Shown piece by piece: positions 5,917 to 20,847 of a stretch of DNA of 35,379 nucleotides. The notes beneath the pieces were generated by a model, which did not search any database, was not told the origin of the DNA, and saw only the letters and a program-made list of their open reading frames with translations. The position numbers were made by a program, and so were the translations under genes. The stretch is from Candidatus Saccharimonadota bacterium (GTDB lineage Bacteria; Patescibacteriota; Saccharimonadia; Saccharimonadales; Saccharimonadaceae): contig JAFQXV010000008.1 of the NCBI GenBank assembly GCA_017406775.1, forward strand, positions 1 to 35,379. Reading direction: 5' to 3'. Every line of letters begins with the position of its first letter. Within the stretch, counting starts at the first letter, position 1.

Positions 5917-6114
5917 ATGGCAAGAAATAAACACCGGAAACTCGAGATTTACGAACCCAAGCGGTGCTGGGTAGGCGAACAACATAAAATTTGTTACGAC
6001 TCCCTAGAAGAGGCAGAGATGGCTGCTAGAGTTGCCGAATATGATCATCATGTTAAAGGGCTAACGGTTTACAAATGTGACTATGGTGATCACTATCATC
6101 TAAGTTCTAACTAG
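5917..6114 (+). CDS. Small Cys/His protein, unknown function
   Basis: A 65-residue protein with a basic start (MARNKHRK), a central helix SLEEAEMAARVAEYDHHV, and an end YKCDYGDHYHLSS. The helix followed by YxCxxxxxxHL is the layout of small proteins whose last strand ends in YxCxxCxxxHLTS; here only one Cys of that pair remains, with His residues nearby that could help bind metal. This family comparison is by pattern only. It is strongly expressed judging by its consensus promoter. It converges on the cutinase-VWA gene and their ends overlap by 8 bp. Confidence 0.75.
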   Translation: MARNKHRKLEIYEPKRCWVGEQHKICYDSLEEAEMAARVAEYDHHVKGLTVYKCDYGDHYHLSSN

Positions 6115-7825
6115 CTTTACCCGTATTTGGCGCTTTTGGAATCAATATATCTAGACTAGTAACCGTTAAGTTGGCTTCATTTATTATTGCGCTTACTGCG
6201 TCACCCCTAATTTCGTCACCAATCGGCACCAAAGAGAGCACATTTTTAACACTGCTATCTAGTCCTTCTATTGTAATTTTTTTCTCGTTCGTATACCCCA
6301 GTATGCGGTCGTTTAAGACCACTAAAGTTTTTTCGGTCTCGGAGCTAAAACTAATGGTAGCTTTGCCGTTCACTTCATATTTAACATTATCAATAGAAAG
6401 CGTAGGTTTTGCAACGGGCGCATCTTCTTCAACTCTCGGCAAACTGTCATAACGTTCCATAATATAATCGGTTAATAGATTTAGCTCGTTAAAATTGGTA
6501 ATTACCTTTCCATCCGTCCGATCGGCAATGTCGACATAATAATCGCTAGTACTAGGATCGGTAATGATATAGAAATTTACCGGATCAATTTTTTTACTAA
6601 GTTTAATTACATCGTCAATATTTACGCCGTCGCGATCTGGAGACAAAAATCCGGCATCGGTTAATACTACTAGTGATTTAGTGGCACCATATTTCCACTC
6701 TAGACTCTGCATAGCATTAAAAGAGGCCGACAACATCGATTCTAAAGTATCGCCACCTCCATCCGCTTTAATATCATTAAGTTCAGAGTTAAATTTTTCC
6801 AAGGAACAAGTGTCAAAATTACAACGTTCAAGTACTGGGAACGGGTCGTCTAGATCACGATATTCAAATAATGCCACTCTTCCGCCAGACCCGATTGTCT
6901 CCTTAGCTAGCCTATACGCTTCCTCTTTATATTGGTCTATCATGCTAGACATAGAGCCAGTTGAGTCAATTAGGATGGCCGTATCATGGTGTGAGGCTAC
7001 CCTGTCAGCTATCCTAAAATAGTCAAAAATTTTAGCCGTAATTACTTTGGCCGCGTCCTCATAAAGATGGTCTGAAATATAGCTAGTATGATCATTAATA
7101 CTCAACCTTGAACTACAAAAAATATCTCGTCGGTTACACCAAGTTCCTAATTTGCCGATTAGAGCTTCCGGCTCGTATGGCTCATACGCTCCAAGTAGTC
7201 CTTTATAAGCCTGACAATCTGGCACGTAAGCTCGGTAGTCAGATAGATTCTTGCCTTTGCAAGCATCTGGCATAATTCCTTCACCTTCCGGCAGATAAAT
7301 TTTAGGATCACCAAAAGTGGCCGCATAGACAATACGTTCTGGGTTAAGTTTAGGGAGCGATTTGGAAATAACCATTGCACCCTGCGAATATCCACCGATC
7401 ACGTATTTAGTGTTGGGACAACTCGCGCCATTTATTAACGTTTCAATTTTGGTTACTCCGCTATTCACGCTCTCACCAAACTCGTAACTATCGCCAGAAC
7501 CAAAGTAGGCTCCTAAAGTTACCCCTAAATTGTCTACTCCTACTCCCACTGCTGGATAATCTAAATCAATAAACTCATAATTAATACTCGTGCCAGAAAT
7601 TCTTTCCTCGATATTTTTCTTAAAATCCAAATAATTCGCATCACGATTTAATTCCCCGCCCGAACCTCTTACAAAGACCACTCTTAAATCTGGACAACCC
7701 GTAGCTTGTGCTTTTTGCCAAGTTGGAGAGATAGTCAGCAATGCTGCAGCCGCCACTAAATAACGAATTTTAATTTTGTGTTTTTTGGCTCGGTATACGA
7801 GCAATGGAATTTTTATACCTCGCAT
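6107..7825 (-). CDS. Secreted cutinase-like / VWA fusion protein with terminal APNTG
   Basis: A 572-residue exported protein with three parts. A signal peptide (basic start, YLVAAAALLTIS core, AQA cleavage site) is followed by an alpha/beta-hydrolase of cutinase type with nucleophile GGYSQGAMV, Asp in FGDPKIYLP and His in NDHTSYISDH. Cysteines in pairs suggest disulfides. From about residue 280 there is a von Willebrand A domain with the MIDAS motif DSTGSMSS and a later Asp in LTDAGF, then an Ig-like beta domain. It ends IPKAPNTGKAS, which looks like a sorting motif (LPxTG-like, APNTG) but lacks the usual following helix and charged tail. Cutinases hydrolyse esters of cutin, lipids or acyl glycans. 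In an epibiont a target on the actinobacterial host envelope is plausible (inference). Start: AAAGGAG with 4 nt spacing. Confidence 0.85.
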   Translation of the reverse strand: MRGIKIPLLVYRAKKHKIKIRYLVAAAALLTISPTWQKAQATGCPDLRVVFVRGSGGELNRDANYLDFKKNIEERISGTSINYEFIDLDYPAVGVGVDNLGVTLGAYFGSGDSYEFGESVNSGVTKIETLINGASCPNTKYVIGGYSQGAMVISKSLPKLNPERIVYAATFGDPKIYLPEGEGIMPDACKGKNLSDYRAYVPDCQAYKGLLGAYEPYEPEALIGKLGTWCNRRDIFCSSRLSINDHTSYISDHLYEDAAKVITAKIFDYFRIADRVASHHDTAILIDSTGSMSSMIDQYKEEAYRLAKETIGSGGRVALFEYRDLDDPFPVLERCNFDTCSLEKFNSELNDIKADGGGDTLESMLSASFNAMQSLEWKYGATKSLVVLTDAGFLSPDRDGVNIDDVIKLSKKIDPVNFYIITDPSTSDYYVDIADRTDGKVITNFNELNLLTDYIMERYDSLPRVEEDAPVAKPTLSIDNVKYEVNGKATISFSSETEKTLVVLNDRILGYTNEKKITIEGLDSSVKNVLSLVPIGDEIRGDAVSAIINEANLTVTSLDILIPKAPNTGKAS

Positions 7826-7980
7826 TTTGCTCCTTTGTTAATGTTGCCAGTTTTTAATCATGCTCTTTCAAAAAATACAACCCCCCATAATAAGCCTATG
7901 CTAATTTTTTTTAACATAAGCGTATCGCTAAGCAATACCGCTTTAAGGAACTTTTAGTAAATGTGCTATAATAAACCAGT
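7826..7980. other. Divergent intergenic region
   Basis: It holds the leader and Shine-Dalgarno sequence (AAAGGAG) of the minus-strand cutinase-VWA gene, and on the plus strand TGCTATAAT (7964-7972), the leaderless promoter of the deaminase gene. No further gene was seen. Confidence 0.55.
7964..7972 (+). promoter_or_regulatory. Leaderless-type promoter of the dCMP deaminase operon
   Basis: TGCTATAAT is followed by eight bases and the ATG at 7981; no -35 match is visible. Confidence 0.7.
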
Positions 7981-17575: not shown

Positions 17576-20426
<2,851 letters not shown>

Positions 20427-20428
20427 AG

Positions 20429-20791
20429 TTATTTTTGCCTCCGTTTAATTTCGGCAATTGTTTTTTGACGAAGCTCTTCTGTGGTGACTTTGGCTAGTTC
20501 ATAGTCGCGTAGCTCTTGGATATCTTCATCGCTCAGCGGCATATTCTCGAGCTCAAAAGTAGCTACTACTTCGCGAATACGCTCGTTTGCGGAAATTGGG
20601 TATGCACCGGTGCGGATTGGGAACGGAATACTTTTAGTTTCGTCGGCACGAAGCAGCATCATCCGAATTACATCGGAAGTATTAGTGCCAAGACTTTCAA
20701 AAAGCTTGCCTACGCGCTCCTTCAGGTCCGCCGGCACGCGTACCTGGATTAAATTGTTGGTGGATTTGGTTTTAGCTATAGTATTACTCAT
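20429..20791 (-). CDS. Antitoxin: RelB/DinJ-type DNA-binding part joined to a VbhA-like Fic inhibitor
   Basis: A 120-residue protein with two parts. Residues 13-60 (NLIQVRVPADLKERVGKLFE, LGTNTSDVIRMMLLRA, IPFPI) match the ribbon-helix-helix start of RelB/DinJ antitoxins. Residues 67-120 resemble VbhA: a helix leading to TFELEN (78-83), which satisfies the Fic-inhibition motif (S/T)xxxE(G/N), then an acidic-basic helical tail. The Glu82 would block the Fic ATP site. So the repressor half is of the kind that normally carries a YafQ/RelE neutraliser, while the neutralising half fits Fic. I start it at 20791 (MSNTIAK): TACAAT lies six bases upstream, and the longer frame would run through the promoter. 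It likely represses its own promoter through the palindromes at 20799-20847. Confidence 0.88.
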   Translation of the reverse strand: MSNTIAKTKSTNNLIQVRVPADLKERVGKLFESLGTNTSDVIRMMLLRADETKSIPFPIRTGAYPISANERIREVVATFELENMPLSDEDIQELRDYELAKVTTEELRQKTIAEIKRRQK

Positions 20792-20797
20792 ACTACT

Positions 20798-20847
20798 ATT
20801 GTATGACAATGTAATACAAAAATCAAGCATATATATTATATATGCTT
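20798..20847 (-). promoter_or_regulatory. Promoter and probable operators of the Fic toxin-antitoxin pair
   Basis: On the minus strand TTGATT (20821-20826), 17 bp and TACAAT (20798-20803) form a promoter ending six bases before the antitoxin ATG. Two inverted repeats overlap it: TTGTAT-9-ATACAA at 20799-20819, inside the spacer, and a perfect 23-bp palindrome AAGCATATATA/TATATATGCTT at 20825-20847 over the -35. Both are good sites for autorepression by the ribbon-helix-helix antitoxin. Confidence 0.65.

Follow-up and report, generated by a model that had tools for sequence, protein, structure and literature searches.

A Conserved C-Terminal Tag Without a Membrane Helix on a Secreted Cutinase–VWA Protein of Saccharibacteria, and Its Possible Reading by Sortase

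The Locus and the Protein That It Encodes

Saccharibacteria are known as a group of bacteria living on other bacteria. The window analyzed here is the whole stretch of 35,379 nucleotides of contig JAFQXV010000008.1 from a Candidatus Saccharimonadota bacterium, whose genome is called G000 below. Its minus strand carries an open reading frame (Table 1) that is confirmed as real and not cut off. The 572-residue product is built, in this order, from a signal peptide, a cutinase domain, a VWA domain with a MIDAS, a beta domain, a disordered linker, and the C-terminal end IPKAPNTGKAS. The structure model of the whole protein (mean pLDDT 82.9) consists of an alpha/beta hydrolase, a VWA fold, and a beta domain at about residues 474–550; residues 552–572 are modeled as a disordered end. 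Conservation was followed in an alignment of 48 genus sequences: the window protein itself plus 47 drawn from the remaining 66 genus loci, with identities to the window protein of 31–67%. An AQA at residues 39–41 precedes the mature Cys44, and Ala41 is present in 37 of the 48 aligned homologues, a pattern that fits a cleaved Sec signal peptide.

The neighboring 65-aa ORF has a homologue beside the cutinase gene at many loci of the genus (59 loci match, several of them from the same genome). Elsewhere in the window, at 19854–20830 on the minus strand, there are two adjacent small genes, judged from their translations to encode a Fic/Doc-like protein and a RelB/DinJ-like antitoxin.

Table 1. Features of the cutinase–VWA locus, in positions of the window.
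Feature	Position	Strand	Basis or remark
Cutinase-VWA-beta-domain secreted protein	6107..7825	-	572 aa, ATG start, stop TAG at 6107-6109
Ribosome-binding site AAAGGAG	7830..7836	-	sequence read; 4 bases upstream of ATG
Putative signal peptide, residues 1-41	7703..7825	-	by inspection: a basic n-region and a hydrophobic core ahead of an AQA cleavage site
Cutinase domain, residues 44-265	7031..7696	-	Pfam match, model, structure matches
Catalytic Ser147 (GYSQG)	7385..7387	-	identical in 48/48 aligned homologues
Catalytic Asp234, between Cys230 and Cys237, in WCNRRDIFC	7124..7126	-	identical in 48/48
Catalytic His246	7088..7090	-	identical in 48/48
VWA domain, residues 277-462	6440..6997	-	Pfam, model, structure matches
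MIDAS DxTxS, residues 287-291	6953..6967	-	48-row alignment
MIDAS Asp390 (LTDAG)	6656..6658	-	41/48
Beta-strand C-terminal domain, residues about 474-550	6176..6406	-	model secondary structure; no Pfam match
Tailless C-terminal tag PKAPNTGKAS, residues 563-572	6110..6139	-	homologue comparison
Convergent 65-aa ORF	5917..6114	+	8-base overlap with the 3' end of the cutinase gene; conserved neighbor, not part of the tag

A Cutinase-Fold Esterase Joined to a VWA Domain

The first domain matches the Pfam family Cutinase (PF01083) over residues 44–265 with an E-value of 3.5e-18 and 66.6 bits, against a cut-off of 25.9. Six cysteines (Cys44, Cys136, Cys189, Cys204, Cys230, and Cys237) are kept in all 48 aligned genus rows. 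The PF01083 family includes cutinases, acetylxylan esterase, Rv3802c, and MSMEG_6394, and the window protein is like them in its fold, in the GYSQG serine, in the aspartate between two cysteines, and in the histidine. It differs from them in its fusion to a VWA and a beta domain, and in a further invariant cysteine pair, Cys189 and Cys204. By its predicted activity, the window protein is a cutinase-fold serine esterase. The second domain matches Pfam VWA_4 over residues 284–425 (E 5.7e-10, above the cut-off), and its structure match (Foldseek, re-aligned) is integrin beta3 (3ze2, Z 21.6). The MIDAS is mostly kept in the 48 rows: D287 in 46, T289 in 42 with serine in 2 more (44/48 together), S291 in 43, D359 in 39, and D390 in 41. 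The VWA domain with its MIDAS is predicted to be a metal-binding adhesion domain. Two claims of the preliminary description, a cutinase-type enzyme with a complete Ser-Asp-His triad and a MIDAS-bearing VWA domain, hold at the level of family match, aligned residues, and modeled fold, and its assignment of the DNA to Saccharibacteria was likewise correct.

The substrate is a question apart from the C-terminal end. The preliminary description had pointed to esters and lipids in the envelopes of actinobacterial hosts as possible targets. The structure matches of the first domain, found with Foldseek and re-aligned, are led by the cutinase-like protein 7cc4 (Z 21.2, rmsd 2.4, 184 aligned), followed by the acetylxylan esterase 1bs9 (Z 20.9), Rv3802c (5w95, Z 20.3), and MSMEG_6394 (3aja, Z 19.4). 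Since these scores are tied or nearly so, no substrate is picked by the fold, and an Rv3802c-type function is indistinguishable in this way from an acetylxylan-type one. It is conceivable, at odds somewhat worse than even, that the enzyme, instead of acting on a bacterial host, works in the rumen on dietary esters such as those of acetylxylan or cutin type. The closeness of the cutinase-like, acetylxylan esterase, and mycobacterial matches, which are too near each other to rank, leaves room for this, and the nearest named relatives, all of them Candidatus Saccharibacteria MAGs, come mostly from the guts of sheep, goat, yak, and water buffalo. Against it, homologues occur in 15 of the 61 sampled genera of the family, counted regardless of habitat, and the window protein has no carbohydrate-binding domain matched in Pfam.

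Distribution and Counterparts Outside the Saccharibacteria

Of the 295 family genomes sampled, 127 contain a cutinase homologue, as do 69 of the 74 genus genomes, the window's own included. In a sample of the whole phylum, the cutinase profile matched in 11 of 379 genomes, again counting the window's own. As to a phage origin, the cutinase–VWA protein was unmatched in phage records and viral contigs, and the pattern of the C-terminal tag gave zero matches in viral contigs.

A tblastn search of plasmid records returned 25 matching records, in all of which less than 80% of the query is covered. An Arthrobacter plasmid matches best (32% over residues 44–492), followed by Rhodococcus. The frame on the plasmid of Arthrobacter sp. 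zg-Y1110 (NZ_CP104273.1) reads Cutinase-VWA-PKD and ends in LASTG, a helix, and RRRR; the record annotates only the later part of this frame, as a PKD protein. The proteins of Rhodococcus pyridinivorans (WP_268656063.1) and Rhodococcus qingshengii (WP_231783644.1) have the same Cutinase-VWA-PKD order without a helix. A frame of this kind on a Rhodococcus pyridinivorans plasmid (L149:2498-4477) ends with GGFPGTGSASGLPGTGSAESIFGR, a PGTG end without a membrane tail. The actinobacterial proteins carry the cutinase and VWA domains in the same order as the window protein and differ from it in their PKD domain and in an identity of 32% at most. Since cutinase–VWA fusions also occur in free-living Actinobacteria, the pairing is peculiar neither to Saccharibacteria nor to episymbiotic life. 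The preliminary description had presented it as unusual and linked to the host, and had named orthologues in free-living bacteria as evidence against such a link; the plasmid-borne proteins weaken this view, and they do so as distant counterparts. The fused enzyme belongs to an already known family with distant free-living counterparts, and it is the tailless, swappable C-terminal tag that is the new part.

In-Frame UGA Codons in a Sister Genus

A separate observation concerns the sister genus g11, where the reading frame of the cutinase homologue contains one to three TGA codons within the gene body at 17 of 34 loci (L102, L104–L107, L111, L206–L214, and others). Most of them align with tryptophan of the relatives, at an E-W-[RK] site and in four further columns, and a few do not. 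The base directly after the codon is A in 24 of 26 TGA codons versus 85 of 247 TGG codons of the same genes. UGA is a leaky stop when the next base is A. The conserved stretches of housekeeping genes in the g11 loci hold 371 TGG and no TGA, CysS lacks an internal stop in all the g11 genomes that gave a match (23 of 24), and genome G094, with 44 tRNA matches, has a single tRNA-Trp with the anticodon CCA and a five-pair anticodon stem recognized by eye. No support for a genome-wide code with UGA as tryptophan came from the genes or from the single tRNA set tested. The codons suggest either a gene-specific readthrough of UGA as tryptophan or an early nonsense stage. In the window's genus, no TGA lies inside the cutinase matches, among the matches listed.

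A Short C-Terminal End as the Rule in the Genus

The ends of the cutinase genes were compared at 67 loci of the genus, which represent 66 of its 69 matching genomes; G257 gives two loci, and G247, G268, and G282 were excluded as split or partial. One locus runs off its contig, which leaves 66 complete genes. A C-terminal membrane helix is found in 0 of these 66, and none of their downstream frames supplies one. In the window itself, no helix follows APNTGKAS in any frame, so the description of the end as a sortase-like pentapeptide without a helix was accurate. An end of the form P-x-[TSAC]-G lies within the last 16 residues in 60 of the 66 homologues. The usual genus end is [IV]PK[AT]PNTG[KR]x followed by the stop, and it comes after an unconserved linker. 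The residue at P1 in the 60 tailless ends is Thr in 44, Ser in 6, Ala in 6, and Cys in 4. The number of residues after the glycine is two in 36 of the 60, three in 12, and never more than eight. Lysine or arginine stands directly after the glycine in 37 of the 60 (the window end, GKAS, has one basic residue), and PK precedes the motif in 40. The six exceptions among the 66 comprise three ends without the glycine (PNTS, PNTA, and PDCS) and three in which a PxTG-like motif is followed by a longer, hydrophilic stretch. Among 21 named public loci, a set that overlaps the 66, 20 have the same kind of end and one is broken by the contig.

The column entropy is 2.9–3.6 bits over the linker at residues 549–561 versus 0–1.1 bits over P563–G569. 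Within the motif, Pro566 is kept in 48 of 48 rows, Gly569 in 46, and Thr568 in 39. The preliminary description had called the motif cut off and had considered that a downstream frameshift removed the tail. A motif without its helix at the end of the window protein is what an assembly error, a frameshift, or a premature stop would leave, and this explanation is refuted for practical purposes by the 66 complete genes without a helix, the 60 with the same end, and the 20 of 21 public loci. The overlap with the 65-aa ORF was likewise rejected as the cause of the short end: it touches only the last codons and the stop, and lipases at other loci share the short end. In this genus the short end is the norm, and the word “cut-off” is therefore wrong.

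It had also been proposed that orthologues be searched for a membrane tail, and here the answer depends on the genus. While the count is 0 of 66 within the window's genus, a hydrophobic C-terminal helix is present at 13 of 16 unbroken homologue loci of other genera and is lacking at L070, L090, and L113. In a cutinase-domain tree of 85 rows, which has several long branches with two actinobacterial rows among them, the tail label changes five times, and at least two of these changes are forced.

The Same End on Other Secreted Proteins

A scan of the window's genome for P[ND]TG gave 15 places, among them six canonical sortase substrates with a helix and a basic tail; the cutinase was the only tailless protein found. 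These six helix-tailed proteins carry [AV]P[ND]TG, which the APNTG of the cutinase resembles. Across 80 genus genomes, the DNA pattern for PK[AT]PNTG occurs at 32 places in 28 genomes versus 2 places for the reversed pattern. The 32 places are 27 cutinases (among them the G279 C40 gene and one gene whose end is extended by a long hydrophilic stretch), two secreted hydrolases of the Lipase_3 family (L300 and L301; E 2.6e-7), a third protein (L302), and two helix-tailed proteins (L288 and L298). The helix is absent in 30 of the 32, namely the cutinases, both lipases, and L302. The lipases end in PKAPNTGKGY and PKAPNTGYAPINRRF, and L302, which is also secreted, ends in PKAPNTGVVL.

The Lipase_3 family was then searched in the 295 family genomes; 22 match, 21 of them in the genus. 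The genus set (22 genes, with L300 added) contains 7 tailless genes, 13 with canonical helix tails, and 2 that are unclear: L305, where the helix has an odd extension, and L313, which has masked bases. Like the cutinase, these lipases are secreted ester hydrolases, and the same tailless end is found in 7 genomes; they differ in belonging to another Pfam family and in having the canonical helix tail in 13 genomes. All seven tailless lipases end in PK[AV]P[ND]TG plus two to eight residues. Both types of end come after the same domain end, PESIMPILK. In the lipase tree, the tailless label requires six changes, four of them forced by well-supported branches, and tails differ within the pairs L307/L323, L317/L324, and L309/L314. 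The occurrence of the same end on unrelated secreted proteins, together with its swaps with canonical tails, indicates a modular, swappable C-terminal tag. Kept throughout the genus and on other secreted proteins, the short end gives the impression of a genuine address label, not of a damaged gene.

How the Tag Might Be Read

The known C-terminal tags of the sortase LPXTG, PEP-CTERM, GlyGly-CTERM, PGF-CTERM, and MYXO-CTERM types are described, in the accessible part of PMC11980579, as a motif followed by a hydrophobic helix and a basic end. The tailless tag is like these tripartite tags in belonging to a secreted protein, in a Pro-x-Thr-Gly near the C-terminus, and often in basic terminal residues; it differs in lacking the helix that they have between the motif and the basic end. 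By the tripartite definition in that part of PMC11980579, the missing helix means that the window protein is not a standard sortase substrate. It may nevertheless work like one. Sortases are available: G000 has two, which both best match class C sortases by sequence, the second weakly, and at least one is present in 293 of the 295 family genomes. The same genome holds three clustered helix-tailed P[ND]TG proteins (C10:25883-33358; L037–L039), two of them with SpaA and T-Q ester bond domains; judged by sequence, the cluster is pilus-like, and a class C-like sortase is encoded at C10:13398.

The best explanation, to which we give a probability of roughly 45%, is a Sec-secreted cutinase-fold esterase with a VWA domain that ends in a modular, sortase-read tailless tag, [IV]PK[AT]PNTG[KR]x-COOH. 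The protein would be exported and its signal peptide cleaved. An extracytoplasmic sortase encoded in the genome would then read the PNTG of the short disordered tail and cut after the threonine. A fragment only a few residues long, here GKAS, would be released, and the enzyme would become attached to a pilin or to the cell surface, which would make the customary membrane helix dispensable. Going by its domains, the VWA part could hold a partner surface, where the esterase would cut ester-linked lipid or acetyl groups. For the reading by sortase speaks the core peptide that is common to the tailless and the canonical tails, which exchange with each other. Several observations speak against it. 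A substrate without a helix should diffuse away from a membrane sortase. Cysteine at P1 in 4 of 60 tags and the loss of the glycine in 3 of 66 should make for poor cutting. The orthologues of the helix-tailed protein L046, taken from 30 of 67 matching genomes as a control, keep T-G in 30 of 30 and are thus stricter than the tailless tag. The argument from this control that the changes of threonine to Ser, Ala, or Cys exclude a sortase is weakened by the canonical lipase tails, 5 of 13 of which have Ser or Ala at P1, so that the range T/S/A fits the sortases of the genus.

It is also possible, at a clearly lower probability, that the tag is real and has another reader, a surface receptor or a component of secretion that binds the C-terminal peptide non-covalently. 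Such a reader would recognize P-K-x-P-N-small-G-basic near the carboxyl end. This would agree with the better conservation of Pro566 (48/48) and Gly569 (46/48) than of Thr568 (39/48), with the near-fixed distance to the C-terminus, and with the PK before the motif and the basic residues after the glycine, which mark the tailless class. A basic residue follows the glycine in 41 of 67 tailless versus 4 of 48 helix-tailed ends, for which Fisher's p of about 3e-9 is nominal because the rows share ancestry. Against this, the full PKAPNTG has a normal helix and basic tail in L040/L298 of the window's genome, as does PKTPNTG in G279 (L288), and among orthologues the end swaps with canonical sortase tails.

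A simpler account, in which the helix was lost, the enzyme is just released, and the leftover motif has no present function, seems improbable. The absence of the helix in 66 of 66 genes and the degenerate motif in some species are what it would lead one to expect. The motif, on the other hand, persists in sequences that have diverged to about 31% identity, in contrast to the preceding linker. In the lipase, which is unrelated, the tailless end arises repeatedly; each time it carries PK and is more than a helix form that has simply been truncated. Repeated exchange with the canonical tail is poorly explained by a leftover and is explained by an alternative sorting end.

A bolder form of the sortase reading is that the genus has a second, tailless class of sortase signals, in which fully exported enzymes are captured from the outside through a bare PKxPNTG-basic C-terminus, as a natural “sortag”. 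We regard this as rather unlikely, slightly less so than a reader other than sortase. The accessible parts of the literature on Saccharibacteria cutinases, sortases, or LPXTG, on cutinase–von Willebrand fusions, on helix-less sortase substrates, on LPXAG/LPXSG, and on UGA readthrough gave no description of the cutinase–VWA protein or the tailless tag.

Significance for the Surface Biology of Patescibacteria

If true, a natural “sortag” would give the bacterium a means of fixing enzymes on pili, on its own wall, or even on a neighboring host cell. A conserved helix-less tag that trades places with canonical tails would also change the prediction of secreted proteins in Patescibacteria, where pipelines that require a helix would call the proteins with the tailless tag free or truncated. 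The tag thereby poses, at the level of a single peptide, the question of how surface enzymes are placed in uncultured bacteria.
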